64,000 bases of DNA from contig NZ_JALAAD010000002.1 of NCBI RefSeq assembly GCF_022984075.1, positions 22,896 through 86,895 of the forward strand, given 5' to 3'. This document shows, piece by piece, positions 495 through 56,949 of the stretch (positions are counted from its first letter, which is position 1; every line of letters begins with the position of its first letter). The DNA comes from Synechococcus sp. C9. Lineage in GTDB: Bacteria; Cyanobacteriota; Cyanobacteriia; Gloeomargaritales; Gloeomargaritaceae. Position numbers and translations under genes: made by a program. The notes under the pieces are model-generated. The model was not told the origin of the DNA and made no database searches. It saw nothing but the letters and a program-made list of their open reading frames with translations.

Positions 495-1094
495 ATGAAA
501 GTCATCACCGTCACAGGCTTCAAAGGGGGCTGTGGCAAATCCACCACCGCCATCAACCTGGCGACGTTCTTGAGCGAGCGGGGCAAAGTCCTGCTGGTGG
601 ATGGGGACCCCAACCGTACCGCCCTCAGTTGGAGCCAACGGGGAGCCTTGCCCTATCGGGTGGCGGATGAGCGGCAGAGCTTCAAGTGGGTGGCAGGCAA
701 TGACTTTTTGGTGATTGATACCCCGGCACGCCCGGACTCCAGCGACCTACAGGAACTTGCCAAGGGCTGTGACCTGCTGATTTTACCCACCCTGCCCGAT
801 GTGGTTTCCCTGGAACCGATGCTGGCGACCGCCCAGGCGTTGGGGGAAGCTACCTACCGAGTTTTGCTCACCATTGTGCCCCCGCCCCCCAGTCGAGAGG
901 GTCAACAGATGCAGACCGACTTGCAGGCATCCGGCATTCCCGTATTCCAGACCATGATTCGTCGGGCGGCGGGGTTTGGCAAGGCGGCTCTCGCTGGGGT
1001 TTCCATCCGAGAGATGACCGGGCGTGACCGGCTCCCCTGGCAAGACTATCAAGCGTTAGGTAAAGAAATTCTGGAGGTACTGGCAGATGGCTAA
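495..1094 (+). CDS. parA: ParA-family partition ATPase, cassette 1
   Basis: A 199-residue deviant-Walker ATPase of the short ParA (type Ib) class, with no N-terminal DNA-binding extension. The Walker A box KGGCGKST is at residues 10-17 with the signature first lysine, followed by LLVDGDPN (A') and FLVIDTPARP (Walker B). Such proteins move or space plasmid copies by ATP-dependent nucleoid binding, driven by a small DNA-binding partner that sits on the centromere. The partner gene at 1087-1635 overlaps its 3' end by 8 bp, so the two are translationally coupled. A paralogue with the same organisation lies at 30425-31018 on the other strand. The start ATG at 495 directly precedes MKVITVTGFKGG. 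Confidence 0.9.
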   Translation: MKVITVTGFKGGCGKSTTAINLATFLSERGKVLLVDGDPNRTALSWSQRGALPYRVADERQSFKWVAGNDFLVIDTPARPDSSDLQELAKGCDLLILPTLPDVVSLEPMLATAQALGEATYRVLLTIVPPPPSREGQQMQTDLQASGIPVFQTMIRRAAGFGKAALAGVSIREMTGRDRLPWQDYQALGKEILEVLADG

Positions 1095-1635
1095 GTATGG
1101 GGACTTAATCCGCAAGGCGAGGGCAAGCACGGGCGGGACGGAGGAGATAGAAACTAGAAAAATGGAATCTAGTTTAGAAGATGTCAGTAATCAAGATTCT
1201 TCAATAACAGATTCTAATAAACATCAAACAAGCATCTTAGATTCAAGCAAAACAGATTCATTTATAATAGATTCTAGTAAACAAGATTCTTTGATGCTAG
1301 ATTCTGTAAAACAAGAAGCAAGTATCACAGATTCAAGTAAACTAGACTCATCTAAAGTAGATTCTATAAAACAGGATGCCAGTATGATAGATTCTGGTAA
1401 ACAAGATGCTTATGCCAAGGTGGCGATGCGCTTGAGTGCGGAAGCGGTGCAAAGGTTGAAGCGGTGGCGGTTACAGACGGGGTTGCCCTACGAAATTCTG
1501 GTGGATGTGCTCATCCGGGGGCAGGATACCCCCACCCCAGCCCAGGTGGAGGAAGCTCGCAAAATCCGCCACTCCCGGTTGTTGGAGGGAAAGCGCAAGG
1601 CTTTGGACAATTCTCAGAGAAAACTTGACCAGTAG
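1087..1635 (+). CDS. Ribbon-helix-helix-like ParA partner with repetitive linker, cassette 1
   Basis: 182 residues in three parts: a basic N-terminus (about 1-30), a low-complexity linker of DSS-K-x-DS type repeats (about 35-108), and a C-terminal module AKVAMRLSAEAVQRLKRW followed by TGLPYEILVDVLIRGQ (about 112-148) that resembles a ribbon-helix-helix DNA-binding fold. By position (8-bp overlap with parA) and architecture it is the centromere-binding partner, a ParB/ParG-like role. The linker is encoded by DNA repeats with an exact 30-nt period, AT-rich compared with the GC-rich flanking codons. The partner of the second cassette (29778-30428) has an analogous but unrelated linker. The DNA-binding fold is inferred from sequence pattern. 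Confidence 0.75.
   Translation: MAKYGDLIRKARASTGGTEEIETRKMESSLEDVSNQDSSITDSNKHQTSILDSSKTDSFIIDSSKQDSLMLDSVKQEASITDSSKLDSSKVDSIKQDASMIDSGKQDAYAKVAMRLSAEAVQRLKRWRLQTGLPYEILVDVLIRGQDTPTPAQVEEARKIRHSRLLEGKRKALDNSQRKLDQ
1209..1410 (+). repeat. Intragenic 30-bp iterons (half-period 15 bp) in the parA1 partner gene
   Basis: The dinucleotide AG followed by ATTC(T/A) recurs at 1209, 1239, 1269, 1299, 1329, 1359 and 1389, an exact 30-nt spacing over seven units with consensus AGATTCTAGTAAACAAGATT. A second, weaker half-repeat (AAGATTCT-like) sits 15 nt after each. The period is in frame, so protein-level repetition (ten-residue units) is an alternative reason for it. The same GATTCTnGTAA core occurs upstream of parA. 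Confidence 0.8.
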
Positions 1636-1684: not shown

Positions 1685-2044
1685 TCAGTTGCTTCTAATC
1701 CTGAATTTATTGGGTTCGATGATGACGATTGCGCCAAGGATTTCCGATACATCAACCTGGTCAAGAAACTGTTCCAGGGCTAGGTAAATTTCAGTGGCAA
1801 CTGCTCTAAACGGCATTCTCAGTATCACCAGTCCGCAATGGGTGTTTGGCGGATAGGTCAATATATTCGCCCAACCAAGGTCACGACTAATAATAATGCA
1901 CTGTTCTTTTTGGGCAGATATGAATAAATCCCTATCTTTTAGACCACTTAATCCTGATATTTTAACATAAATTGCTGAATGGCCTTTATCGATAAGTAAC
2001 CTTGCTAAACTGAGGGGACAATCTTCATCGACTAGAAATTTCAA
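1685..2044 (-). CDS. DUF5615 PIN-like toxin
   Basis: 119 residues starting MKFLVDEDCPLSLARLL, the typical DUF5615 opening with the conserved acidic pair, then ISRDLGWANI (the second acidic site of the PIN-like fold). DUF5615 proteins are putative ribonuclease toxins coded just downstream of a DUF433 antitoxin. Here the start overlaps the stop of the DUF433 gene by 4 bp, giving a classical two-gene toxin-antitoxin operon on the minus strand. Family length is about 110-120 residues, so it looks intact. Confidence 0.85.
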   Translation of the reverse strand: MKFLVDEDCPLSLARLLIDKGHSAIYVKISGLSGLKDRDLFISAQKEQCIIISRDLGWANILTYPPNTHCGLVILRMPFRAVATEIYLALEQFLDQVDVSEILGAIVIIEPNKFRIRSN

Positions 2045-2259
2045 CTAGCTTGCTCCATCCTCAGGAGTTCACCACAATAAGCCAGTGCATCCAGAATTTG
2101 TTGATGGGTGATGCCGTATTCGTGCATAACTTCTTCATAGGTCATGCCACCGGCGAGCGAGCCAATGACGACAGCGACAGACAGACGAGTACCTTTGATG
2201 ACCGCTTGACCATGTTGGATGTGACTATCCACAACAATCTGGTTTGTTTTACCATCCAT
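2041..2259 (-). CDS. DUF433 antitoxin
   Basis: About 72 residues from MDGKTNQIVVD; the body contains GQAVIKGTRLSVAVVIGSLA and GMTYEEVMHEYGIT, the diagnostic DUF433 winged-helix antitoxin core. The frame is open to an earlier ATG at 2292 (MRLSWHQ), but family members start with MD-x-KTNQIVVD, so 2259 is preferred. It precedes the DUF5615 toxin with a 4-bp overlap. Upstream of it lies an orphan copy of the parA2 control region (2290-2370), which may now act as its promoter region. Confidence 0.8.
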   Translation of the reverse strand: MDGKTNQIVVDSHIQHGQAVIKGTRLSVAVVIGSLAGGMTYEEVMHEYGITHQQILDALAYCGELLRMEQAS

Positions 2260-2289
2260 AGCATTGCTTATTTGGTGCCACGATAACCT

Positions 2290-2370
2290 CATTGTATTCC
2301 TTCACTCGGCATGATGAATATTTGCACTTTTGCGTACTCGTTAACTGTCTAGGAATGGGCAGACTAGTGA
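2290..2370. promoter_or_regulatory. Orphan copy of the parA2 upstream (centromere-like) region
   Basis: Positions 2327-2348 are identical over 22 nt to 31076-31097, which lies upstream of parA2; the shared core is TTTTGCGTACTCGTTAACTG. Similarity extends on both sides (ACTCGGCATGATGA against ACTCAGCATGATGA, and GGGCAGACTAGT against GGGCAGACCGGT). The orientation relative to the gene to its left is the same as at parA2. No parA is attached here. It may be a decoy or second centromere, or the relic of a lost partition cassette. Confidence 0.6.
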
Positions 2371-7199: not shown

Positions 7200-10100
7200 A
7201 TGCTGTCCACCGCCCAAAATACGGTTTTGCCCTTAGAGCCGAATCCAAATACTATTACTAGCAATAGCTTCAATGTGGCTCTTGGGGTACTGAATAGTGA
7301 TTTGTTGAGTCCTGTCCAAACACGTTTGCAAGCGATTGCCAGCAGTGATGATTTCTTTACTCGGGTACTTGGTGAAAAAACCAATACTGCGGAAATCCAG
7401 GCGATTCGTTCCCAATGGGCGGTTGGTGATTTTTCGGTCTTTCCCAAGCTCCAAATTTTAGATGCGGCGGTGCTCGGAGAGGCTTTTGGTGCCTACAGTG
7501 AGACCACTCAAACGATTTATTTGTCTTCTGCGCTCCTGGCGAGTGAGGCAGATGACTGTATGTTTGGGGCGACCGGGGTTTTGATTGAGGAGACCTTCCA
7601 CTGGTTGGATAGTTTAGTGGGAGACGATACCCCTGGGGATGAGGGCGAACTGGCTCGTCATCTCATCTTTGGGGTCACACCTAGTGGGGAAGAATTAGCC
7701 CGAATTGGTCAAGAGCAAGACCAAGGGCTTCTCTGGCTGAACGGGCAAGCTACGCCTGTGGAACTTTCAAGTGATTTCGCTGGCAACACCTTTGCAACTG
7801 CCCGGAATATCACTTTGGGTTCGACCCCTAGGACCTTCAGAGATTGGGTGGGCAGTACGGATACGCTGGACTACTATCGGTTCACCCTAAATCAGACCAG
7901 CACGGTCAATCTCTTCCTGACGGGCTTGAGTGCTAATGCCCAGTTGGGTTTACTCGATGCTAACGGGCGTTGGCTGGCGTGGGATTGGCGGTCAGGAACT
8001 GAGTCGGAAAGAATTACTCAGGATTTGAATGCGGGTACCTACTTTATTGAGGTACAACAAGGGAGTGGGGACACCTCCTACACCCTCACTGCTTCAGCTG
8101 ACCCACTGCCTGCTGACTTGGCCGGAAATACCTTTGCGACCGCCCGCAATATTACCTTAGGTTCGCCCCCCACGACCTTCAGAGATTGGGTGGGCAGTAC
8201 GGATATGCTGGATTACTATCGGTTCACCCTAAATCAGACCAGCACTGTCAATCTCTCCTTGACGGGTTTGAGTGCCGATGCCCAGTTGGGTTTACTCGAT
8301 GCTAACGGGCGTTGGCTGGCGTGGGATTGGCGGTCAGGAACTGAGTCGGAAAGAATTACTCAGGATTTGAATGCGGGTACCTACTTTATTGAGGTGCGGC
8401 AATGGAGCGGGTTTACCAACTACAACCTCACTGCTTCGGCAACCCCAACTCTGCCAACGGTAACCATTGCGGCGACGGATGCGGAAGCGGCAGAAACTAA
8501 CCCTGGGCAAACCCCCAACCCTGGTCGCTTTACCTTGACCCGCACGGGGAGTACCACCCATGCGCTGACGGTGAACTACTCCATCGGTGGGACGGCGACC
8601 AATGGCAGTGACTTCAACCGTTTGACCGGGACGGTCACCTTTGCCGCAGGTGCAAGTACGGCGTTCATTGACATTAATCCCATCAATGACAGTGAGTTTG
8701 AAGACCCGGAAACCGTCATCCTCACCCTTGTCAATAGCTCGAATTACCTAGTTGGGACAAGCAACAGGGCGACGGTGACCATCCTGGATAATGACCTGCC
8801 AACGGTAACCATTGCGGCGACGGATGCGGAAGCGGCAGAAACTAACCCTGGGCAAACCCCCAACCCTGGTCGCTTTACCTTGACCCGCACGGGGAGTACC
8901 ACCCATGCGCTGACGGTGAACTACTCCATCGGTGGGACGGCGACCAATGGCAGTGACTTCAACCGTTTGACCGGGACGGTCACGTTTGCCGCAGGTGCAA
9001 GTACGGCGTTCATTGATATCAATCCCGTCAATGACACTCTGGTTGAACCCTCGGAGACGGTTATTCTCACCCTTGTTAATAGCTCGAATTACCTAGTTGG
9101 GACAAGCAACAGGGCGACGGTGACCATCCTGGATAATGATGTATTGCCAACGGTAACCATTGCGGCGACGGATGCGGAAGCGGCAGAAACTAACCCTGGG
9201 CAAACCCCCAACCCTGGTCGCTTTACCTTGACCCGCACGGGGAGTACCAGCTCTGCGCTGACGGTGAACTACTCCATCGGTGGGACGGCGACCAATGGCA
9301 GTGACTTCAACCGTTTGACCGGGACGGTCACCTTTGCCGCAGGTGCAAGTACGGCGTTCATTGACATTAATCCCATCAATGACAGTGAGTTTGAAGACCC
9401 GGAAACCGTCATCCTCACCCTTGTCAATAGCTCGAATTACCTAGTTGGGACAAGCAACAGGGCGACGGTGACCATCCTGGATAATGACCTGCCAACGGTA
9501 ACCATTGCGGCGACGGATGCGGAAGCGGCAGAAACTAACCCTGGGCAAACCCCCAACCCTGGTCGCTTTACCTTGACCCGCACGGGGAGTACCACCCATG
9601 CGCTGACGGTGAACTACTCCATCGGTGGGACGGCTACTGGGGGTACAGGTAACAACGCAGACTACACCATCGGGGGTACGTCCACCAGCGTAAACTTCAT
9701 TAACCGAACTGGGACGGTCACCTTTGCCGCAGGCTCTAGCACGGCGGTCATTGACATCAACCCCATTGATGACACTCTGGTTGAACCCTCGGAGACGGTT
9801 ATTCTCACCCTTCTGGGCAGTTCTACCTACCAAATTGGCACCAGTAAGACTGCCACGGTGACCATCCTGGATAATGATGTCCCCACCGTGATTATTTCCC
9901 CCAATATCATTCGAGGGACACTTAGAGCTGATACCTTCACCTATACTCCAACCCATGCCCGCACCGTTTTCATCGGGAATGGCAATGTGGACTACGGCGC
10001 TGGAAGACGGGATGAAATAGACCTGAGTACAGTGTCCTACGGAACAGTCACCTTTAACCTTGCCAACACGAATGGAGGGGGCGTAGTGTTCAATCCAGGG

Positions 10101-11210
10101 AATGGCAATCGCATTTTCGATGCACTCACGCTCAATGACGGCAAAGAAATTCTGTTTGAGGGCATCGAGCGCATCCGATTTGCTGATCGAACCCTTGACC
10201 TATCTGTGACACCCAACGACCCGCACTTTAACCAGCAGTGGAACCTGCACATGATCGGGGTGCACCACGCCTGGCGCTTTACCACTGGCTCCAGTAATGT
10301 ACTGATTGGCATCCAAGACAGTGGCTTGGGAGTTGATAGTCAGGATCAGGACAAAGTTCACCAAGAGATAGATATAAGAAGGACAACCTTTCTTCCTTCT
10401 AACTATCGGGATGAGTTTGGGAAGCCAAGTTCTCACGGAACAGCCGTTCAGGGGATTATCGCCGCAAAAAGTAACAATGGTAGCGGGATAGCTGGAATCA
10501 ACTGGAACTCTAATGTGTTCCACATTGATGTGCTGGATAATGATGGCAACGATTTATCCCTCCACGATGCGGCACAACGGATGATTAACAGTGCCAAAAA
10601 TTCAGGTCAGAAGTTGGTCATCAACATGAGTTTGGGTGCTAATCCTACTACTTTTGGAGAGGACTTGGGTTGGCGAATAGGAGATGTTGTGAAGAATAAT
10701 CAGGATGTGTTGTTTGTCATATCCTCTGGTAATGATGGGCACAAAAGAGAAGGTATCGGTTACCCCGCCTTCTTGGCTAGTAAGTACAACAATGTGATGG
10801 CAGTGGGAGCAGTTCACGGGACGAAAAACGCCTATGGTCAGGCAACCACTCCAGGTACTCGTATTGAATACTCTGGGTGGTGGGGTTCCCAGTACGGCAC
10901 TGGGTTAACCCTAATGGCTCCCTCGGAAGTCTATACCACGAAGGCTACTCGTAATCCTACGGGTTCTGTCAGCTTTAGTTACGACGAAAAATTTAATGGC
11001 ACATCAGCGGCGGCACCTCATGTGACTGGTGTAGCTTCCCTCATTTGGAGCGTCAACCCCAATCTCACAGCCGCTCAACTCAAAACCATCATGTCGGACA
11101 CTGCCTATAAGGGTGTTCCTGACTATAGCAAACGCTACTATGGGGAAGGGGTAGTCAATGCTGATGCTGCTGTGCGGAGGGCGATGGCAATGGCTCGTGG
11201 GTCTGCCTAG
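7200..11210 (+). CDS. Secreted-type subtilase with PPC and Calx-beta repeats
   Basis: 1336 residues. Order: an N-terminal region with IEETFHWLDSLVGD (about 115-205) common in large cyanobacterial exoproteins; two PPC-like beta domains (about 195-415); four Calx-beta repeats (about 418-900), each starting PTVTIAATDAEAAETNPGQT and ending TVTILDND; a linker; then an S8 subtilisin domain (about 1005-1330). Catalytic triad: Asp1040 (GIQDSGLG), His1079 (SSHGTAVQG) and Ser1269 (NGTSAAAPHVTG), all intact. No classical signal peptide is visible, so export is presumably by a type I route, as for similar Calx-beta proteins. Calx-beta modules bind calcium and act in adhesion. The next gene is a PrcB-like lipoprotein, a plausible partner. 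AAAGGAG lies 11-15 nt before the ATG. Confidence 0.85.
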   Translation: MLSTAQNTVLPLEPNPNTITSNSFNVALGVLNSDLLSPVQTRLQAIASSDDFFTRVLGEKTNTAEIQAIRSQWAVGDFSVFPKLQILDAAVLGEAFGAYSETTQTIYLSSALLASEADDCMFGATGVLIEETFHWLDSLVGDDTPGDEGELARHLIFGVTPSGEELARIGQEQDQGLLWLNGQATPVELSSDFAGNTFATARNITLGSTPRTFRDWVGSTDTLDYYRFTLNQTSTVNLFLTGLSANAQLGLLDANGRWLAWDWRSGTESERITQDLNAGTYFIEVQQGSGDTSYTLTASADPLPADLAGNTFATARNITLGSPPTTFRDWVGSTDMLDYYRFTLNQTSTVNLSLTGLSADAQLGLLDANGRWLAWDWRSGTESERITQDLNAGTYFIEVRQWSGFTNYNLTASATPTLPTVTIAATDAEAAETNPGQTPNPGRFTLTRTGSTTHALTVNYSIGGTATNGSDFNRLTGTVTFAAGASTAFIDINPINDSEFEDPETVILTLVNSSNYLVGTSNRATVTILDNDLPTVTIAATDAEAAETNPGQTPNPGRFTLTRTGSTTHALTVNYSIGGTATNGSDFNRLTGTVTFAAGASTAFIDINPVNDTLVEPSETVILTLVNSSNYLVGTSNRATVTILDNDVLPTVTIAATDAEAAETNPGQTPNPGRFTLTRTGSTSSALTVNYSIGGTATNGSDFNRLTGTVTFAAGASTAFIDINPINDSEFEDPETVILTLVNSSNYLVGTSNRATVTILDNDLPTVTIAATDAEAAETNPGQTPNPGRFTLTRTGSTTHALTVNYSIGGTATGGTGNNADYTIGGTSTSVNFINRTGTVTFAAGSSTAVIDINPIDDTLVEPSETVILTLLGSSTYQIGTSKTATVTILDNDVPTVIISPNIIRGTLRADTFTYTPTHARTVFIGNGNVDYGAGRRDEIDLSTVSYGTVTFNLANTNGGGVVFNPGNGNRIFDALTLNDGKEILFEGIERIRFADRTLDLSVTPNDPHFNQQWNLHMIGVHHAWRFTTGSSNVLIGIQDSGLGVDSQDQDKVHQEIDIRRTTFLPSNYRDEFGKPSSHGTAVQGIIAAKSNNGSGIAGINWNSNVFHIDVLDNDGNDLSLHDAAQRMINSAKNSGQKLVINMSLGANPTTFGEDLGWRIGDVVKNNQDVLFVISSGNDGHKREGIGYPAFLASKYNNVMAVGAVHGTKNAYGQATTPGTRIEYSGWWGSQYGTGLTLMAPSEVYTTKATRNPTGSVSFSYDEKFNGTSAAAPHVTGVASLIWSVNPNLTAAQLKTIMSDTAYKGVPDYSKRYYGEGVVNADAAVRRAMAMARGSA
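8455..9885 (+). repeat. Four tandem Calx-beta coding repeats
   Basis: Units of roughly 340-400 bp begin at about 8455, 8799, 9147 and 9493 with the same CCAACGGTAACCATTGCGG string and are nearly identical over long stretches. This implies recent homogenisation and makes the copy number unstable. Confidence 0.85.
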
Positions 11211-18634: not shown

Positions 18635-18839
18635 AAAATTCTTTTGAAATAGGGGGAAGAGATTAGGTCTGGTTCAGACACTCTCTCCCGATTAGGTTGC
18701 GCCCACCAGTGAAAGGGCTTGCAAAAAAACACCAATCTCTTTGCCAGGGGATTTAGGTGTTATTTGCACTATAGCATAAGCAAGCATCTTTTCGTAGTGG
18801 TGGCGTGACGCAGGCAAAAATCCTGACCAGTCACCAGTG

Positions 18840-21800
18840 ATGCTTCCCAGAATTGTTCCCCAAACCATAGAGAGTGTTGTCGCACCTGCCCTACCCGAGC
18901 CGGTACTGCGGGAGTTTCGGGCATCCGCCATCCCCGATGACCTGACCCTCGCCAATATCGCAATCCTCACCGGGGAGCCTTTACTCGAGGAGTTGACCGG
19001 GAGTGCGCTCGGCGAGTTGGGCGGTCACAGCCAGCAGTACTGCACCCAGGCAGTCAAGAAAATCCTCGCCAAATATGAAACGGTAGCGGCAGGGGGAGCC
19101 TGGGTCTGTTACGGGCAGACGCTCGACGGGGAGAAGGGGAGCATCCCGGTCATCAAACCCTTTCGCCCCCGCAGGGTCACCCAGGGCACCGGCATCACCC
19201 AAAAACAGAAGGTCATCAAGTATGAAACGCCCGTCGGTGCCAAAGGCACGCCCATCCTACCCGTTGTCCCAGAGAAATATATTCAACTCATTGAACAGCG
19301 ATTTGGGGTGAGGATTCCCCGGGAGATACCCTTCTGGCAGGCAGTTTTAGCCAATCCCGCCATCCCCTTGTCCATTCACGAGGGACCCAAAAAAGCCCTA
19401 ACCGCCATTGCCCAGGGTCTGCCTGCCATTGCCATCCGGGGGGTGACCATGTGGCGGTTGAAAGGCACGGATTTCCTTAGCGATGAATTGGAAACCTTTG
19501 CCCAGAAGGGACGCCGGATTTTCCTGTTTTTTGACCAGGACAGCGCCCCCAAGACCCGTAGAAATGTGTTCAAGCAGGCGGTGAAACTGGGGCAAGCCTT
19601 CACCCGCCACGGTTGTGATTTCCGTGCCGTCACCTGGGAACCGACCCTCGGCAAAGGCATTGATGATGTACTGTTCACGATTGCCCCGGAACACCGCTGG
19701 GAGTGGTTGGGCACCCTGTTGGACAACACCCGCAACATCCGCCAACTCAACCGGGAACAGGCGGTGGAAACGGCTCTGACCCGCCTGGAATCTTCACAAA
19801 AATTAACCTACCCGGTGGAACGGCATACGGAGTCAGCCTATCTGCCGGAATTGCCTGCTTTGTCTGCCCATGCCATTCACGGGTTATGCGCCCCCATGAA
19901 CAGCGGCAAAACCTATCGGATTGGGCAGGATTGGGTGTCGGCTTGGAAAGCCCAACGGGAGCATTTTGTGATTGTGCTGACTCCCTTGAACAGTTTGGGG
20001 GAACAGACGGCACAGCACTGGGGCTTGCCCCACATCCACAGCTTCCCCAACAGCGAGGCGGGGCAAAAAGGGTTGGAAGCCTGTATGCGCCATGCAGGGG
20101 GGTTGGTGTTGTGCCCCGATTCCCTGCACCGGCTCCCGGAGTGGGTGTGGAGTCAGCAAATCTTGCTGGTGCTGGATGAGGCCAACCAGGTTTTGGAACA
20201 CCTGGTGCGGGGGCAAACCTTGGGCAAGCGTTGGTCGTGGATTAATTGTCGGTTTGTCCAACTAGCGCAGAGTGCCCAAGCCATCGTCGCTTCCGAAGCC
20301 AATTTGCCCGACCGTGCCCTCGACCTGCTCAAAGTGCTGAGCAAAAAAGAGACGGTGCGGCTGTTTACGCATAGGAAACACCAACAACCCTGGCAAATCA
20401 CCTTTTATACCGGCTGTAGTCAGCACAACTCTGGGTTCTTTGCCGAATTGCTGGCGCAATTGCAAGCGGGTCACAAGCTGATGTTTGTGAGTAGCTCGAA
20501 ATTTGCGGGGCAGAGGCTCGAGGGGATGGTGCAGGCGGTACTCCCCCAGCTGAAGGTGGTGCGGATTGATTCGGATACTAATGAGGGCAGTGCCTTCACG
20601 GACTTTTTTGAGCAACCCGACCAATGGCTGGAAGACCAGCAACCCGATATACTCATCTGTTCCCCGTCGGTGAAATCGGGGGTGAGTATCCAGGGGGGTC
20701 TGCCGCCAGAACAAGCCTACTTCCATTCGGTGTGGGGTTATTTCCCCTCGGGCACCACCGATATTCATCTGCAATTGTTGGGGCGATTCCGTCCTGCCGT
20801 GCCTCGTCATATTTATTGTCCGCCGGTGGTGTTCTCCGACTCGGATGAGAGTAGCCTGTCTGCCCAGGTGATTGGGCGGGAATTACGCAAGACAGCCCAG
20901 GCACTCACCCAATGGCTGGGTTTGAGTCATTTACTGGACATCCCGGATGAAGCAACCGAGCGCATCCAAAATGCCCTGTTTGAGTTTTACGCCCAATCCC
21001 ATGCGGTTCACGGTGCCATGCGGCGGGCGAGTTTGGACTACCTGGTTCAGCGATTGCAACAGGACGGACATCAAATCACCTACCAAGCCCTGCAACTGTC
21101 TGCCCCAATCAGGGAATTGATGGGCACCGTGCACCGTGCCATCGAGTACCAGAAAGCGGAAAACCTGGCAAACGCCCACCTGGAGCCAGAACACACGGTG
21201 GACTGGGCACAGCAAACGCTCCAATCCCAGTGCAGTTTGGCGGACCGCTACCGTGCCCAAAAGGTGTTGTTGCAACAGGACTTTCCCGGGGTGGATTTCA
21301 ACGATGTGGGTATCTGCCTGCAAGCGGTGGTGGAGGACTACAGTGCCCTCCTCAAGGGGGTGAAGTTGCAGGTGCACGCCGAAAACCCGGAACTGGTGAA
21401 ACTCCAGGATGCCTACAAAGTGCGGGAGATTTTGCACAACCAAACCCTCAAGGGCATCCACAAACTGCCCAAGGGCACCATCTGCGCCCTGCTCATTAAC
21501 ACCTTGCGGGTCTTGGAACTGTTGGACAAGACGTACAGCAACCAGAGTGCCCTGGTGCAGGAGATAAAGGCACTGGCGTTGCATCACCGGCGCTTGATTG
21601 AGCGATACCTGCATTTGCACATCAAGCCAGAGCAAACCGGGGTGCATATCGTCAATAAACTCCTGAGACGTTTGGGGTTAGAGCCAAAAGCGATTGCCCG
21701 CCCGGGCACCAAAGAGCGGGAACGGCATTACCAAGTGGTAGGGAGCGAATTGCGGCGTGCCTTGTTGTCCGCCTACCGCAGTCGGTTGTCCAGCCTACGT

Positions 21801-21947
21801 CCACCGTTTTCATCCAATAATCTGGAGGTAAACCTAAATCGTGGACGGGGTGTCAGTACAGAACTCCCACATCCGGGTGGGGGAACGGAAAATGCAGTAC
21901 AACAGCCCAATCCACCGCCGGGGAGGGAAGACATTTCTCCCTGTTGA
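18840..21947 (+). CDS. CyRepA1-family plasmid replication protein
   Basis: About 1035 residues. The N-terminal third carries the DUF3854/Toprim-like region (SIHEGPKKALTAIAQGLPAI, LFFDQDSAPKTRRNV, GKGIDDVL) expected of a primase; the middle part carries a helicase core with Walker A-like CAPMNSGKTYRIGQ, Walker B LLVLDEANQVLEHL and a motif VI region QLLGRFRP. This primase-helicase fusion is the hallmark of CyRepA1, the replication initiator of plasmids such as Synechocystis pSYSA. ATG at 18840 is chosen over the GTG at 18837. The upstream 200 bp may hold the origin or a copy-control RNA, as antisense control is known for pSYSA; neither can be seen directly. Confidence 0.85.
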   Translation: MLPRIVPQTIESVVAPALPEPVLREFRASAIPDDLTLANIAILTGEPLLEELTGSALGELGGHSQQYCTQAVKKILAKYETVAAGGAWVCYGQTLDGEKGSIPVIKPFRPRRVTQGTGITQKQKVIKYETPVGAKGTPILPVVPEKYIQLIEQRFGVRIPREIPFWQAVLANPAIPLSIHEGPKKALTAIAQGLPAIAIRGVTMWRLKGTDFLSDELETFAQKGRRIFLFFDQDSAPKTRRNVFKQAVKLGQAFTRHGCDFRAVTWEPTLGKGIDDVLFTIAPEHRWEWLGTLLDNTRNIRQLNREQAVETALTRLESSQKLTYPVERHTESAYLPELPALSAHAIHGLCAPMNSGKTYRIGQDWVSAWKAQREHFVIVLTPLNSLGEQTAQHWGLPHIHSFPNSEAGQKGLEACMRHAGGLVLCPDSLHRLPEWVWSQQILLVLDEANQVLEHLVRGQTLGKRWSWINCRFVQLAQSAQAIVASEANLPDRALDLLKVLSKKETVRLFTHRKHQQPWQITFYTGCSQHNSGFFAELLAQLQAGHKLMFVSSSKFAGQRLEGMVQAVLPQLKVVRIDSDTNEGSAFTDFFEQPDQWLEDQQPDILICSPSVKSGVSIQGGLPPEQAYFHSVWGYFPSGTTDIHLQLLGRFRPAVPRHIYCPPVVFSDSDESSLSAQVIGRELRKTAQALTQWLGLSHLLDIPDEATERIQNALFEFYAQSHAVHGAMRRASLDYLVQRLQQDGHQITYQALQLSAPIRELMGTVHRAIEYQKAENLANAHLEPEHTVDWAQQTLQSQCSLADRYRAQKVLLQQDFPGVDFNDVGICLQAVVEDYSALLKGVKLQVHAENPELVKLQDAYKVREILHNQTLKGIHKLPKGTICALLINTLRVLELLDKTYSNQSALVQEIKALALHHRRLIERYLHLHIKPEQTGVHIVNKLLRRLGLEPKAIARPGTKERERHYQVVGSELRRALLSAYRSRLSSLRPPFSSNNLEVNLNRGRGVSTELPHPGGGTENAVQQPNPPPGREDISPC

Positions 21948-22854: not shown

Positions 22855-23709
22855 TTGCGTACTGACACGATTTTCTATCAACTGTCTCAGACCTTTCCCA
22901 CCCTATTGATGGAGCTATTGGGGGAAGACCCTGCCAGCATCGCCAGCTATCAGTTCACCTCGGTAGAAGTGAAGGAAAAAGCCTTTCGCTTCGATGGGAT
23001 ATTCCTGCCCCAAAGTGAGGATAAAACTATTTGGTTTGTAGAAGTGCAGTTCCAAAAGGTGAATGAATTTTACAGCCAGTTATTTAGCGAGATATTTCTA
23101 TTTTTGCAACAGTACCGCCCGGTGCAGGATTGGGGGGTGTTGGTGTTGTTTCCAGACCGGCAGGCGGAACCAGCTCTAAGTAAGCAATATCGGGAATTGC
23201 AGGGGAGAGTGCGGGCTATTTATCTGAATGAATTAGAACCGGGGACATCGGTGATATTGGGGCTGGTGAAATTAGTCGTTACCCCAGAAACGGAAGTTAT
23301 TAAAGCGGCACAGGCGTTGGTGGCAATGGGGCAGGGGGTGGATGGTTTGCTAGAATTTGTGGAGACGATATTGATTTACAAGTTAAAGACCTTGAGCCGA
23401 GAGGAGATAGAGCGGATGTTTACCCTAGGAGATTTACGGCAGACGCGGGTGTATCAAGAAGCCAAGCAAGAAGGACACCAAGAAGGCTGGAAAGAAGGGT
23501 GGAAGGAAGGGTGGCACGCAGGGGAGCAGAGGGGTAGAACCATAGCATTACGGGAAACCCTTTACCGCCAAATCGCCCGCAAGTTTGGCAGGGTGCCAGA
23601 TAGCATCAGCACTAAACTAGAACAGTTATCCTTAGAGCAACTGGGGGCATTTGCGGAAGCCATCATTGACATCTCTTCCCTGGAGGAGTTGGAAAATCTC
23701 AAGTTGTAA
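22855..23709 (+). CDS. DUF2887 / Rpn-family nuclease-like protein
   Basis: 284 residues from a TTG start at 22855, 24 nt after the Uma2 stop. RTDTIFYQLSQTFPTLLMEL, SVEVKEKAFRFDGIFLP and TIWFVEVQFQK...FYSQLFSEIFLFLQQY are the DUF2887 signature of PD-(D/E)xK proteins related to recombination-promoting Rpn nucleases. The acidic D(GIF) and E-V-Q residues form the putative catalytic core. The C-terminus has a repetitive basic-aromatic stretch (EGWKEGWKEGW, about 212-224) and an amphipathic tail. Common in cyanobacteria; activity not shown. Confidence 0.8.
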   Translation: MRTDTIFYQLSQTFPTLLMELLGEDPASIASYQFTSVEVKEKAFRFDGIFLPQSEDKTIWFVEVQFQKVNEFYSQLFSEIFLFLQQYRPVQDWGVLVLFPDRQAEPALSKQYRELQGRVRAIYLNELEPGTSVILGLVKLVVTPETEVIKAAQALVAMGQGVDGLLEFVETILIYKLKTLSREEIERMFTLGDLRQTRVYQEAKQEGHQEGWKEGWKEGWHAGEQRGRTIALRETLYRQIARKFGRVPDSISTKLEQLSLEQLGAFAEAIIDISSLEELENLKL

Positions 23710-29777: not shown

Positions 29778-30428
29778 CTATTCCCTGGTGAGCCAGCCTT
29801 CGAGCAACTCTTGCATCAGCGTGGAAAAGTCACCCCCGTCCTGTGCCAACAAGCGCATTTTGACCCGCCGGTAGGTCTCCTTGCGGATGTAAGCCGTCAC
29901 TTGCTCATAAGCCGGGTCAGAACGTTTCCCCCTTTTCGCTCTCCCGCCACCCGGTACATCCGAGTTGTCAGCTACCCGATAAACCGGACTTTCATCTTTT
30001 TGCGTACTCGCCTTGTTCCACTTTTGAGTTTCCATACTGTCAGATATTTGCGTATCTGAACTTTCAGAAGGTTGACTACTCCCGTTGTCAGATGTTTGCA
30101 ATGTTGAACTTTTGCGTATTTGCTCTTTCACCCCATCAGATATTTGCATATCTGAACGTTCAGCAGGTTGACTACTTGCATTGTCATCTGTCTGCAATGT
30201 CGGACTTGTGTATATTTGCGTTTTCACCCCATCAGATGTTTGCGTACTCGAATGTTCGTCATGCCGTATATCTGGACTTTTGCCCTTTCGCCTACTCGCC
30301 TTGCTGTATTGTTGCGTTGTCGCACCTTTGGATGTTTGAGTTGGTGCATCTTCAACAGGGGCAATGTCTCCATCTCCTGGAGATTGTGGATGCTCTGAGG
30401 TCTCAAACAGTTTCCCAAACCGGCTCAT
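29778..30428 (-). CDS. ParA partner with repetitive linker, cassette 2
   Basis: 216 residues. The N-terminus MSRFGKLFETSEHPQ is followed by a long polar linker of 16-residue repeats (SSTQTSDGVKTQI, MQISDGVKEQIRKSSTLQTS; about 40-145), then a C-terminal module PAYEQVTAYIRKETYRRVKM then LLAQDGGDFSTLMQELLEGW resembling a ribbon-helix-helix DNA-binding protein. Its start overlaps the parA2 stop by 4 bp. The architecture copies that of cassette 1 although the linker sequences are unrelated, and the DNA of the linker again carries motifs also found upstream of its parA. Role as centromere-binding protein inferred. Confidence 0.75.
   Translation of the reverse strand: MSRFGKLFETSEHPQSPGDGDIAPVEDAPTQTSKGATTQQYSKASRRKGKSPDIRHDEHSSTQTSDGVKTQIYTSPTLQTDDNASSQPAERSDMQISDGVKEQIRKSSTLQTSDNGSSQPSESSDTQISDSMETQKWNKASTQKDESPVYRVADNSDVPGGGRAKRGKRSDPAYEQVTAYIRKETYRRVKMRLLAQDGGDFSTLMQELLEGWLTRE
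29993..30300 (-). repeat. Intragenic 48-bp iterons (half-period 24 bp) in the parA2 partner gene
   Basis: CA(G/T)(A/C)T(A/G/T)TTTGC-type units start at 29993, 30041, 30089, 30137, 30185 and 30233 (exactly 48 nt apart), with a degenerate unit at 30281. Each carries ATTTGCGTA(T/C)(C/T)TG-like cores, and half-units lie 24 nt on. ATATTTGCGTAT (30044-30055) and TGAACTTTTGCGTA (30104-30117) recur exactly upstream of parA2. Confidence 0.8.
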
Positions 30429-31018
30429 AGGTTAATCTCCTTCATCAGTTGTTGATAGTCCCACCAGGCGTTGATGGCATTCCCATCCGCCACGTCGCAT
30501 ACCAGACAGCCCTCTAATCCCGCCTTCTGAAAGGCAACGTAGCGGCGGATGACTTGTTCAAAAACTGGTATTTTTTGTCTTTTGAGGGTTTGCTGGGCTT
30601 CGGCTCCCGCTTGGCTGGGATAGGGGGGCACCACCGTCAGCAAGACTTTGTAGCGTTCCGTCGCCAGTTGTCGCAGGGTGGTGATGGTCATCAGCAGGGC
30701 ATCCAGAGCCAAGGCATCGGGGGTGGTTGGCAGAATCAACAGGTCGCATCCTTCGCTCAGGTCTTTTAATTCTTCCATTGAGGGACGTGCCGGGGTATCA
30801 ATCACAATATATTCGTGTTCGCGCATTCGTTTGGGAGCTTGATTCTCCGTCACGACCAAGAAGGGGAGTTGTCCCCGTTGCGCCCAACGCAGGGCGGAAC
30901 GGTTTGGGTCCCCATCCACAAGCAAGGTTTTGCCGCGCCGATGCAGTAGCCCCGCCAGGTGGATGGCTGTGGTGGTCTTGCCGACGCCACCCTTGAAACC
31001 CGCTAGCGTGATAATCAT
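30425..31018 (-). CDS. parA: ParA-family partition ATPase, cassette 2
   Basis: 197 residues, type Ib ParA. Walker A KGGVGKTT (residues 9-16), LLVDGDPNRSALRW and YIVIDTPARPSMEEL. About half identical to the ParA at 495. It forms a two-gene operon with the partner (4-bp overlap). The upstream 80 bp contain the motif block shared with the partner-gene iterons and with the orphan at 2290. Two ParA systems in one window may mark a fused replicon or two plasmid lineages. Confidence 0.9.
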   Translation of the reverse strand: MIITLAGFKGGVGKTTTAIHLAGLLHRRGKTLLVDGDPNRSALRWAQRGQLPFLVVTENQAPKRMREHEYIVIDTPARPSMEELKDLSEGCDLLILPTTPDALALDALLMTITTLRQLATERYKVLLTVVPPYPSQAGAEAQQTLKRQKIPVFEQVIRRYVAFQKAGLEGCLVCDVADGNAINAWWDYQQLMKEINL

Positions 31019-31033
31019 GCCGTTATGTTACCA

Positions 31034-31110
31034 AATATTTGCGTATGGAAAAACTCAGCATGATGAGTACCTGAACTTTTGCGTACTCGTTAACTGTTCT
31101 AGTGTGGGCA
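31034..31110 (-). promoter_or_regulatory. parA2 upstream motif block (putative centromere/operator)
   Basis: It contains ATATTTGCGTAT (31035-31046) and TGAACTTTTGCGTACTCG (31072-31089), both matching units inside the partner gene, 40 nt between the GCGTA cores. 31076-31097 is identical to 2327-2348. On the gene strand the GAGTAC...GTACTC segment forms an interrupted inverted repeat. Binding by the partner protein is inferred. Confidence 0.55.
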
Positions 31111-31160
31111 GACCGGTAGTGGGGTAGGAGACTCTTGTTGTTAGAGATAATGGTGGTCAG

Positions 31161-31565
31161 CTACTTGAACTCAATCGTCTTCAAGAACTCATCTGGGCTA
31201 ATCACTACCACTTCACGGAATGGATGCAATACCAGCAAGTCCTGATCGCCACTGATGATGGACTGGGCTTGCCCATTCAACCCTAACTCCAAATCATCTT
31301 TCGGGTCACGACATTCTTGCACCTTTTCGGTTATTTCGACCAAAACGGCTCGCTCTATTGAAGCTTCTAAAAATTCCTCCCGCTCTTCCGTAGTTAAATA
31401 CCGATTAAGTCTTTTGCGCCCAAGAACTTCATCCAACTCCTCCAATAGGTCAAGTGATAGTAATACTTCTCCATTCGCTAGAGCATATCGAAATGCTTGA
31501 GCAGGTTTGCTGTTCTCCAACAAAAGCGCACTGATCAGCACATTTGTATCAAAAACGCAGCGCAC
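31161..31565 (-). CDS. PIN-domain toxin (VapC-like, putative toxin component PIN family)
   Basis: 134 residues: MRCVFDTNVLISALLLENSK (first Asp), LEELDEVLGRKRLNRYL (Glu), CRDPKDDLELGLNGQAQSII and SGDQDLLVL (C-terminal Asp residues). The acidic PIN quartet is complete, so a ribonuclease toxin is expected. The gene immediately upstream (31567-31794) encodes the likely antitoxin, 1 bp away. Confidence 0.85.
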   Translation of the reverse strand: MRCVFDTNVLISALLLENSKPAQAFRYALANGEVLLSLDLLEELDEVLGRKRLNRYLTTEEREEFLEASIERAVLVEITEKVQECRDPKDDLELGLNGQAQSIISGDQDLLVLHPFREVVVISPDEFLKTIEFK

Positions 31566-54994: not shown

Positions 54995-56949
54995 TCGCAA
55001 AGGGGCTGTGGGGGAAAACCACAGTGAGAGCCTGGCTCGATATGATGGGAGCGGACTTTACGGGGGCGTCTTCAAAGGGGCTGTGGGGGAAAACCACAGT
55101 GAGAGCGGGCAACCGTGGAGTACATCATTATCGATCCAATCATCCTTCAAAGGGGCTGTGGGGGAAAACCACAGTGAGAGTACGGAAATTTGGAGCGGTT
55201 ATGGGGGAAATTGTTTGCCTTCAAAGGGGCTGTGGGGGAAAACCACAGTGAGAGAAACCAACCTGTTTGCTCTCAGATGCTGGCAAATAGCTTCAAAGGG
55301 GCTGTGGGGGAAAACCACAGTGAGAGTGCTTCATATCTGGATTGGCTGGAGCCTGGGCAACACCTTCAAAGGGGCTGTGGGGGAAAACCACAGTGAGAGT
55401 AGGGGCTTGTGGGAGTAGAGCCTAGCCATCTGGACCTTCAAAGGGGCTGTGGGGGAAAACCACAGTGAGAGTGCTTCATATCTGGATTGGCTGGAGCCTG
55501 GGCAACACCTTCAAAGGGGCTGTGGGGGAAAACCACAGTGAGAGCCTGGCTCGATATGATGGGAGCGGACTTTACGGGGGCGTCTTCAAAGGGGCTGTGG
55601 GGGAAAACCACAGTGAGAGCTCAAATCTAACCAGTAAGAACAGACATTCAGGATAGGTCCTTCAAAGGGGCTGTGGGGGAAAACCACAGTGAGAGTAGGG
55701 GCTTGTGGGAGTAGAGCCTAGCCATCTGGACCTTCAAAGGGGCTGTGGGGGAAAACCACAGTGAGAGTGCTTCATATCTGGATTGGCTGGAGCCTGGGCA
55801 ACACCTTCAAAGGGGCTGTGGGGGAAAACCACAGTGAGAGTACGGAAATTTGGAGCGGTTATGGGGGAAATTGTTTGCCTTCAAAGGGGCTGTGGGGGAA
55901 AACCACAGTGAGAGTGCAAGCTGGGGGGGAGTTGGAAATGGAAGCATGGCACCTTCAAAGGGGCTGTGGGGGAAAACCACAGTGAGAGCCTGGCTCGATA
56001 TGATGGGAGCGGACTTTACGGGGGCGTCTTCAAAGGGGCTGTGGGGGAAAACCACAGTGAGAGCGGGCAACCGTGGAGTACATCATTATCGATCCAATCA
56101 TCCTTCAAAGGGGCTGTGGGGGAAAACCACAGTGAGAGAAACCAACCTGTTTGCTCTCAGATGCTGGCAAATAGCTTCAAAGGGGCTGTGGGGGAAAACC
56201 ACAGTGAGAGCTCAAATCTAACCAGTAAGAACAGACATTCAGGATAGGTCCTTCAAAGGGGCTGTGGGGGAAAACCACAGTGAGAGTACGGAAATTTGGA
56301 GCGGTTATGGGGGAAATTGTTTGCCTTCAAAGGGGCTGTGGGGGAAAACCACAGTGAGAGCCCTGGAACTCCCCGAACTCTAAATCCCTAGAAATCCTTC
56401 AAAGGGGCTGTGGGGGAAAACCACAGTGAGAGCTGTTTCCGGAAACCAACCTATACGGGGAGGACGACCTTCAAAGGGGCTGTGGGGGAAAACCACAGTG
56501 AGAGTGTCGGAAGTGCTCTCCAGCCGTAGCTTAGATGAACGCCTTCAAAGGGGCTGTGGGGGAAAACCACAGTGAGAGTACGGAACCGGTGCGAACGGTA
56601 AAGATGCTCTAAGCCTTCAAAGGGGCTGTGGGGGAAAACCACAGTGAGAGCTCTCCGGTTGATTTTCTTCCATCTTCTGGAAGCCTTCCTTCAAAGGGGC
56701 TGTGGGGGAAAACCACAGTGAGAGTCCCTATAGAAATTCCCGATTTATTGCCGCCGGATGGACTCCTTCAAAGGGGCTGTGGGGGAAAACCACAGTGAGA
56801 GTCGGGTGCCCGGACAAGTTCAATTTGATCATAATTCCTTCAAAGGGGCTGTGGGGGAAAACCACAGTGAGAGGCCCTAAACGAGGTGCACAGCGTGATG
56901 AACCTGCCCGAACCTTCAAAGGGGCTGTGGGGGAAAACCACAGTGAGAG
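54995..56949 (-). CRISPR. CRISPR array, 27 repeats of 36 nt, 26 spacers (16 distinct)
   Basis: On the plus strand each repeat starts CTTCAAAGGGGCTGTGGGGG and ends AAAACCACAGTGAGAG; CTGTGG and CCACAG can form a 6-bp hairpin. Spacers are 36-41 nt. Orientation is minus: the repeat then ends in TTTGAAG as many do, the only degenerate repeat (54995-55030, last three bases changed) is at the left, and unique spacers lie at the right, next to csb2. Spacer order left to right: A B C D E F E A G F E C H A B D G C, then I to P unique. It is the array of the adjacent subtype I-G genes. Confidence 0.97.

Follow-up and report, generated by a model that had tools for sequence, protein, structure and literature searches.

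The centromere of TP228 has an ACTC box and 8-bp spacing, and the ParB-like binding protein of the SCP2 type adopts a helix-turn-helix (HTH) fold. The partition cassette described here consists of parA2 and its partner gene in a 64-kb stretch of DNA from Synechococcus sp. C9 (hereafter, the window; positions 22896–86895 of contig C2). The partner gene carries a run of 8-bp units (octads) in a single register, with counterparts upstream of parA2. Across the family of related cassettes the upstream octads are linked to the class of the partner protein, and in-gene copies occur on some other plasmids. Judged from sequence, this is fairly likely to be a type Ib-like partition cassette in which the 8-bp sites of a predicted ribbon-helix-helix (RHH) protein lie mostly inside its own gene.

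Precedent exists both for an in-gene parS (SCP2) and for type Ib ParB octad iterons lying partly in open reading frames (ORFs; pMF1). In the ParA-ParT-parS system of SCP2 from Streptomyces, parS lies within parT, where it has been altered by mutations that left the encoded amino acids unchanged (PMC12260392). The window is similar in that the site, if the octads are indeed parS, would lie within the coding sequence of its own predicted binding protein. In SCP2, however, a ParB-like protein recognizes just one 18-bp inverted repeat, whereas the window has an octad array and a predicted RHH protein (PMC12260392). The parCAB system of pMF1 from Myxococcus follows the type Ib pattern, and its ParB binds 8-bp iterons with the unit AGATGTCT, some of them inside ORFs (PMC3235114). 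This unit resembles the class-B octads of the cyanobacterial family defined below, but the pMF1 iterons are few, those named as in-ORF in the accessible text lie in other ORFs, and the system includes a third gene, parC (PMC3235114).

In type Ib partners a flexible N-terminal domain, which carries an arginine finger, is combined with an RHH domain at the C-terminus (PMC5016525). ParFGH of TP228 shares with the window a short ParA and an RHH protein with a flexible N-terminal tail, the latter being predicted in the window. Its partition site, in contrast, is an upstream centromere of tetramer boxes with AT-rich spacers, and the accessible portions describe no tract in the tail (PMC7308502, PMC5016525, PMC5389482). 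In pSM19035 an RHH ParB binds contiguous short repeats, as is predicted here, with the difference that the unit is a heptad rather than 8 bp and that no in-gene array is described in the accessible portion (PMC9499535). A paper on cyanobacterial plasmid replication treats no partition site in the portion available (PMC10899382), and no report of octad arrays inside cyanobacterial plasmid partition genes was found in the literature searched, most subscription journals being outside its scope.

Octads in the partner gene and upstream of parA2

Contig C2 measures 86.9 kb in a genome of 2.96 Mb. The replicon carrying this cassette and a second one in the window (cassette 1, treated below) is most likely a plasmid because the contig encodes a CyRepA1-family plasmid replication protein (18837..21947; NF042913, expectation value (E) 5.1e-66); the contig ends show no overlap with each other. 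The features of the cassette are as follows.

30425..31018, minus strand: parA2, encoding a short, type Ib-like ParA-family ATPase of 197 aa
29778..30428, minus strand: partner gene, encoding a predicted centromere-binding protein of 216 aa
29778..29934, minus strand: predicted RHH domain of the partner (approximately residues 166–216; QVTAYIRK strand and two helices)
29952..30367, minus strand: in-gene run of 52 octads in one register (consensus approximately AWATNCRA), a predicted binding array or centromere
31031..31086, minus strand: seven octads upstream of parA2 in a register of their own, a predicted operator and minor array

Autocorrelation over codons 25–156 of the partner gene is high at lags 8, 16, 24, 32, 40, 48 and 56, identifying 8 bp as the repeat unit; identity is 0.384 at lag 8 and 0.303 at lag 7. 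The lags that fall out of the codon frame (8, 16, 32, 40 and 56) have a mean identity of 0.395, compared with 0.327 (standard deviation 0.009) in synonymous shuffles, in which the protein is unchanged, and 0.267 in codon-order shuffles, which served as a second null. None of 2000 shuffles of either kind reached the observed mean. Lag 48 also exceeds both nulls (z-scores (z) of 4.1 and 7.0), and Tandem Repeats Finder calls the tract with a 96-bp period. An earlier note on this DNA had described the repeat as a 48-bp iteron. The units that it listed at intervals of 48 nt are present at all six positions (29993, 30041, 30089, 30137, 30185 and 30233), and those at 29993, 30041 and 30233 carry TTTGCGTA exactly, while 30089, 30137 and 30185 carry the variants TTTGCAAT, TTTGCATA and TCTGCAAT. 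The longer unit was nonetheless rejected, as the signal persists out of frame at lags 8, 16, 32 and 40; reading octads in triplets gives rise to the 24- and 48-nt periods, 24 being the least common multiple of 8 and 3.

A pyrimidine-purine-purine pattern occupies octad positions 6–8 in 46 of the 52 octads, against maxima of 39 in 2000 synonymous and 20 in 2000 codon-order shuffles, where the best register was taken for gene and shuffles alike and the ends of the run, 29952 and 30367, were set by the analyst. The exact TTTGCGTA cores within the gene, at 29999, 30047, 30239 and 30111, are all congruent modulo 8. This word occurs eight times in the window, compared with 1.46 expected, a count reached in none of 100 shuffles; the partner gene holds four of these, the region upstream of parA2 has two, and the last two are at 2329 and 29123. 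When 43 non-overlapping ORFs of at least 100 aa were scanned across the window (347 sub-windows), the partner gene reached z 11.8 against codon-order and 6.6 against synonymous shuffles, the next-highest values being 2.9 and 2.6, respectively. A chance cluster was rejected on the excess of TTTGCGTA in the window and the restriction of the signal to one of the 43 ORFs.

Relatives of the partner vary in the same tract. P0002 is identical to the partner except that exactly 32 aa are missing, which equals 96 nt or 12 octads and is what recombination within a repeat array would be expected to produce, and proteins 74–83% identical to the partner diverge chiefly in the tract. Among eight family genomes, ParA2 has matches at 1e-10 in two, its own and one other (2.9e-15).

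The octads upstream of parA2 read, in order, GTACGCAA, AAGTTCAG, GTACTCAT, CATGCTGA, GTTTTTCC, ATACGCAA and ATATTTGG. Five of the seven show the pyrimidine-purine-purine pattern, and two exact TACGCAAA cores are found among them, 40 bp (5 x 8) apart. The upstream region and the partner gene have a 14-mer in common, and the identical words that the earlier note had picked out in both places were found again: in the window ATATTTGCGTAT occurs only at 30044 and 31035, and TGAACTTTTGCGTA only at 30105 and 31072 (plus strand). A promoter scan of 30950–31200 returned no sigma-70-like site.

Partner proteins and octads across the family

ParA2 matches Pfam CbiA over residues 3–170 (5.1e-14). At 197 aa, with no N-terminal extension, it has the type Ib feature of a short ParA (approximately 200 aa) without an N-terminal DNA-binding domain. 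Its nearest solved relative, by sequence match only, is 3cwq_A, a 'ParA family chromosome partitioning protein' (1.6e-70, residues 1–195), and ParF structures are among its other PDB matches. The start of the partner gene overlaps the stop of parA2 by 4 nt, and both gene order and overlap fit type Ib. The partner aligns with the short partners of related cassettes, and a profile of 32 partners matches the CopG-family RHH protein 9kkd_A in the PDB (E 5.6e-5). RHH_5 and RHH_1 Pfam matches (E at most 0.05) were obtained for 4 and 3 of 30 family members, respectively, the protein of the window having none. AlphaFold2 models residues 11–160 at a predicted local distance difference test score (pLDDT) of approximately 43–53 and two helices, 183–196 and 201–215, at approximately 84–91. 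The family profile, the RHH matches of three to four of the 30 members and the two confident helices together lead us to predict that the partner is an RHH protein. Pfam shows no ParB_N or HTH_ParB match in it, VIA-align 2 gave nothing useful for two models of it, and no relative turned up when viral sequences were scanned with the partner alignment.

Family partners are mostly shorter than that of the window. In them an MSKFxxLL-like motif at the N-terminus is joined through a variable linker to an RHH-like domain at the C-terminus. With 216 aa, the partner of the window is long for a small type Ib partner, its N-terminus is modelled at low confidence, and the octad tract encodes 8-aa repeats of the STQTSDxx type. 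The corresponding N-terminal motif, MSRFGKLF, is probably a ParA contact. Similar motifs open proteins of other kinds beside family ParAs. The partners of L072 (3593–4534), L073 and L074 start with MGKFNKLL and that of L089 with MGRFNKLL (313–355 aa); L072, the sole one of the four to be scanned, has ParB_N and HTH_ParB, so that related ParAs are found with another DNA-binding fold. At L025 (3594–4919), an FtsZ-like protein (Tubulin 7.6e-55, FtsZ_C 1.3e-29) adjoins a family ParA and starts with the partner motif MSKFRDFFDAAK, as if a ParA-contact tag had been fused to FtsZ. Because the motif precedes these unrelated domains near related ParAs, a portable ParA contact is suggested.

Relatives of ParA2 were found in 117 plasmid records (E at most 1e-20) and, among the 386 genomes of the phylum that were searched, in 91, counting that of the window (E at most 1e-25). 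Regions were fetched for 5 of the 117 plasmid records for ParA2, 10 of 109 for ParA1 and 2 of 2 for partner 1; the first five of 22 viral loci were used, and one relative collection contributed 80 of 256 relatives. The locus set for the in-gene count comprised a set of 92 loci, both window cassettes included, and 29 more, 121 in all. The script did not locate the partner at 5 + 4 of these, and from the 112 that remained 20 were excluded, the next ORF being either not of the RHH type or apparently misread (ParB_N and FtsZ-like proteins among them). This left 92 partner genes, with duplicates retained and some plasmids counted twice. The 86 upstream regions are the sufficiently long ones from the initial 92-locus set, in which loci set aside later are still included.

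Upstream of parA, an 8-bp array reaches z of at least 3 in 39 of the 86 loci, with a top lag of 8, 16 or 24 in 34 of the 39, and TACGCAAA is present in 27 of the 86 compared with 1.3 expected. Sorting 107 loci by the strand with which the partner is predicted to contact DNA placed 93 in a class and left 14 unclassed; 72 remained after removal of near-duplicates. The top hits of a search over all 7-mers were taken as class words. TGCGTAC lies upstream in 20/24 class A loci (QVTAYIRK) and 0/48 others, CATCTAA in 14/16 of class B (RTTIYLP) and 0/56, TTCGCCA in 12/15 of class C (GRTYYV) and 1/57, AAAACCA in 7/7 of class E (VNLCVKVP) and 2/65, and TTAAGTG in 3/3 of class F (GVYIPK) and 0/69. The resulting class-to-octad table pairs QVTAYIRK with TACTCAA/TACGCAA, RTTIYLP with ACATCTA, GRTYYV with TTGGCGA and VNLCVKVP with AACCAGA. 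The upstream octad sequence tracks the class of the predicted RHH strand. The link may be due in part to shared descent within a class; the class-A word also extends beyond close kin, a Melainabacteria contig (L013) having TTTTTGCGTACGCAAAA upstream.

Two further observations concern the arrays and partners of particular loci. In three Obscuribacterales loci (L046, L048 and L052) the octad signal is strong 3' of the partner gene (z 4.5–5.9) and weak upstream (0.8–1.8). The partner on PCC 7002 pAQ4 (L185) has 61 aa, compared with 81 on pAQ7 (L186), and over the 120 nt that precede parA the two plasmids show 99% identity; pAQ4 may depend on the protein of pAQ7.

With respect to in-gene octads, the gene of the window is the extreme of the 92 partner genes (z 5.7 synonymous, 9.4 codon-order), followed by L064 (2.7 and 5.2), L047 from Pleurocapsa (3.1 and 5.1) and L139 (2.2 and 4.8). 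Its upstream array is the weakest among 24 class-A loci (z 1.3, the others 1.9–5.9). The class-A octad model [AG]TACTCAA, taken from the 23 other class-A upstream regions, finds 25 sites in this gene compared with 9.9 in synonymous shuffles (0/100). The gene also contains 25 of its own upstream 9-mers versus 4.25 (0/200), a number matched by none of 53 other-class genes. In the L047 gene, class-B octads number 25 versus 13.6 (0/100) and class-A octads 3 versus 5.1, the shared 9-mers showing no excess (3 versus 3.2).

The earlier note had proposed that tract motif and upstream motif should vary together across homologues, and this held for classes A, E and H and failed for B and D. Mean numbers of own upstream 9-mers in the gene, in its synonymous shuffles and in other-class genes are 4.46, 1.42 and 1.1 for class A, 12.2, 4.2 and 1.3 for class E, and 13.0, 4.9 and 0.9 for class H. 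Individual loci whose count was reached in 0–1 of 200 shuffles number 4/24 in A, 4/11 in E, 1/4 in H and 1/15 in C, with none in the other classes. Motif sets learned from the other loci of a class give mean z in its genes of 1.16 (A), 1.03 (C), 2.95 (E) and 0.73 (F), with all seven class E genes at z of at least 1.9. Scores on the sets of other classes are mostly near 0, the exceptions being H on the E set (1.96), D on the E set (0.77) and C on the F set (0.72); the single class G gene scores 1.2 on the E and D sets. The class E octad, AACCAGAA/AACCAGAT, is found both upstream of parA and in the partner gene, where it encodes PENQ/PDNQ-type repeats, in Crinalium pCRI9333.02,.03 and.04, Nostoc, Microcystis FD4, Fischerella and L178. 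The AACCAGAA plasmids of Crinalium, Nostoc and Microcystis are the clearest cases of in-gene recurrence of an own motif outside class A. Gene and upstream words in common extend to 16, 15 and 12 nt at L013, L014 and L015.

Cassette 1, which belongs to class H, was used as a comparator.

495..1094, plus strand: parA1 (cassette 1), its product 52% identical to ParA2
1087..1635, plus strand: partner 1 (cassette 1), 182 aa, with 15/30-nt in-frame repeats of the GATTCTAGTAAA type

The two cassettes had been held to share one design. Cassette 1, however, repeats at 15/30 nt in the codon frame, and its periodicity is weak over synonymous shuffles (z 2.3 at lag 15 and 3.2 at lag 60). Nine 9-mers are common to its gene and upstream region, a count reached by 3 of 200 synonymous shuffles; with downstream words added, 13 are shared (0/200). 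Eight of the nine come from a single stretch, 399–421, and taken alone the cassette is weaker than first held. Two relatives of partner 1, P0013 and P0015 (204 and 189 aa), apparently differ solely in how many DSSLQ repeats they contain. L199, a class-H relative of partner 1, adjoins a different sort of ParA-family protein (275 aa; AAA_31, 8.9e-37) and has 21 identical nt upstream of parA (654) and within the partner gene (1650); on this sequence identity it supports the principle of a shared upstream and in-gene motif at its own locus. The suggestion that different motifs let the two systems coexist without cross-talk is not supported, both window cassettes lying on one contig and near-identical cassettes being co-resident elsewhere. 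ParA identities are 0.965–0.995 among three Crinalium plasmids, 0.98 for pAQ4/pAQ7 and 0.99 for pSYSX/pSYSM, and the 120 nt upstream are identical at 0.87–1.0. Different octads are therefore not needed for co-residence.

The region upstream of parA2 recurs near cassette 1.

2298..2369, minus strand: second occurrence of the region upstream of parA2, containing GTACGCAA octads and preceding a DUF433/DUF5615 pair

Its local alignment with the parA2 upstream region scores 43, compared with at most 18 for random windows. The DUF433/DUF5615 pair (1685–2292, minus strand; Pfam), which we take to be a probable toxin-antitoxin, has the same orientation as the copy. The partition protein may also control this pair, or the copy may be a spare site. 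Elsewhere, the window contains an array resembling clustered regularly interspaced short palindromic repeats (CRISPR) at 55144–56650 (repeat of approximately 36 bp, period of approximately 72 bp), and tandem repeats of approximately 342–345 bp with 90–94% matches at 7788–9634, within the ORF 7200..11210.

Competing explanations of the octads

Duplication of an 8-aa disordered spacer at the protein level, with the likeness of the DNA simply following, would account for the 8-aa repeats of the tract and the high values at lags 24 and 48, and the linker is indeed modelled at low confidence, as for disorder. Such an origin is contradicted by the single register, which 46 of the 52 octads fit, and by the mean of the out-of-frame lags, which lies above that of all 2000 synonymous shuffles and bears out the contention of the earlier note that the tract is organized at the DNA level. 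The words of the tract are also present in non-coding DNA, upstream of parA2 and of parA on other plasmids. The octads pass through all three codon frames, so that peptide repetition cannot explain them, and we regard it as very improbable. Even less credible is a role of the octads as iterons recognized by some other protein, be it a host factor or the CyRepA1-type replication protein (18837..21947). Initiators of plasmid replication frequently act on iterons, and a CyRepA1-family protein is encoded on this replicon; against this, the octads are at the par cassette, approximately 8 kb from the rep gene, and over 72 deduplicated loci the upstream octads track the predicted DNA-contact strand of the partner.

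The octads could also be binding sites of the partner that serve regulation rather than segregation, through autorepression, a transcription roadblock or titration of the protein. Seven of them are directly upstream of parA2, a copy of that region precedes the DUF433/DUF5615 pair, and type Ib partition proteins act as repressors too (PMC5016525). An array of 52 octads over 416 bp would, however, exceed the expected need of an operator, and the requirement in pSM19035 for at least four contiguous repeats for full activation of ParA is one that a long array satisfies (PMC9499535); a purely regulatory role is considered unlikely. It is also conceivable that the octads are a captured relic rather than under present selection, an upstream array having slipped or been duplicated into the gene, where it now drifts without function. 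This would suit the divergence, mainly in the tract, of proteins 74–83% identical to the partner, and the fact that most of the 92 family partners are short and have no in-gene array. On the other hand, a single register spans all 52 octads, which drift and small indels would break. Classes E and H also have in-gene copies, of other motifs, and since the upstream array of the window is the weakest among 24, the main load may fall on the tract. A relic is rated quite unlikely.

Several results count against the preferred interpretation, in which the partner's likely sites lie mostly within its own gene. On the side of the protein, Pfam and NCBIfam scans of the window's partner gave best E values of only 0.66 and 0.039 and no RHH match, the monomer models show no strand, and Foldseek on two models returned two matches for one (E 8.5 and 9.1) and zero for the other. 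On the side of the DNA, the parA2 upstream array is weak by periodicity over 200 nt (z 1.3). Sites of the class-B octad model are likewise in excess in the window's gene (21 versus 8.2, 0/100), and the match is therefore not unique to class A. Own-class motif sets show no enrichment in the genes of classes B (0.05) and D (−0.14). Own upstream 9-mers (gene, synonymous shuffles, other-class genes) are likewise without mean excess in B (1.4, 1.0, 1.2) and D (0.3, 0.9, 1.3), and only in small excess in C (2.9, 1.9, 1.0), F (2.0, 0.9, 0.8; n=3) and G (3.0, 1.3, 1.0; n=1), so that the arrangement is not universal. Even within class E, the octad is visible at L177, L185 and L186 (the last two being PCC 7002 pAQ4 and pAQ7) with no clear excess of own words (3 versus 1.0–2.5), and at L178 the class-E model is not above shuffles (10 versus 9.4 synonymous, 44/100). 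The octads may, finally, be the captured relic considered above.

A proposed centromere written into a protein-coding gene

If the partner reads these sites, its dimers would bind successive octads side by side, much as RHH ParB does on the heptads of pSM19035. The in-gene array would then form the main centromere, moved along the nucleoid by ParA2, with the upstream octads repressing the parA2-partner operon. The octads occupy the linker between the MSRFGKLF motif and the predicted RHH domain. This linker seems tolerant of much sequence change and would therefore be free to be written by octads, leaving the 8-aa repeats as a by-product of the centromere sequence. The weakest upstream array of the 24 class-A loci coincides here with the strongest in-gene array, and we therefore read the locus as one where the centromere has moved into the gene. 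The full proposal is that the main centromere has moved into the ORF of its own binding protein, that selection on the centromere has written the linker, that this has been repeated with different octads, and that each strand class reads its own octad as a strand-to-octad code; it is put forward tentatively, as a possibility to which we give somewhat less than even weight.

The class-to-octad table makes the DNA specificity of a predicted RHH partition family directly testable. Should the proposal be correct, the unexplained polar-repeat proteins encoded beside parA on cyanobacterial plasmids would be centromere DNA within an ORF, and the centromeres of such plasmids could be read straight from sequence. 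The family would also offer a clean case of a DNA-level constraint dictating protein sequence.

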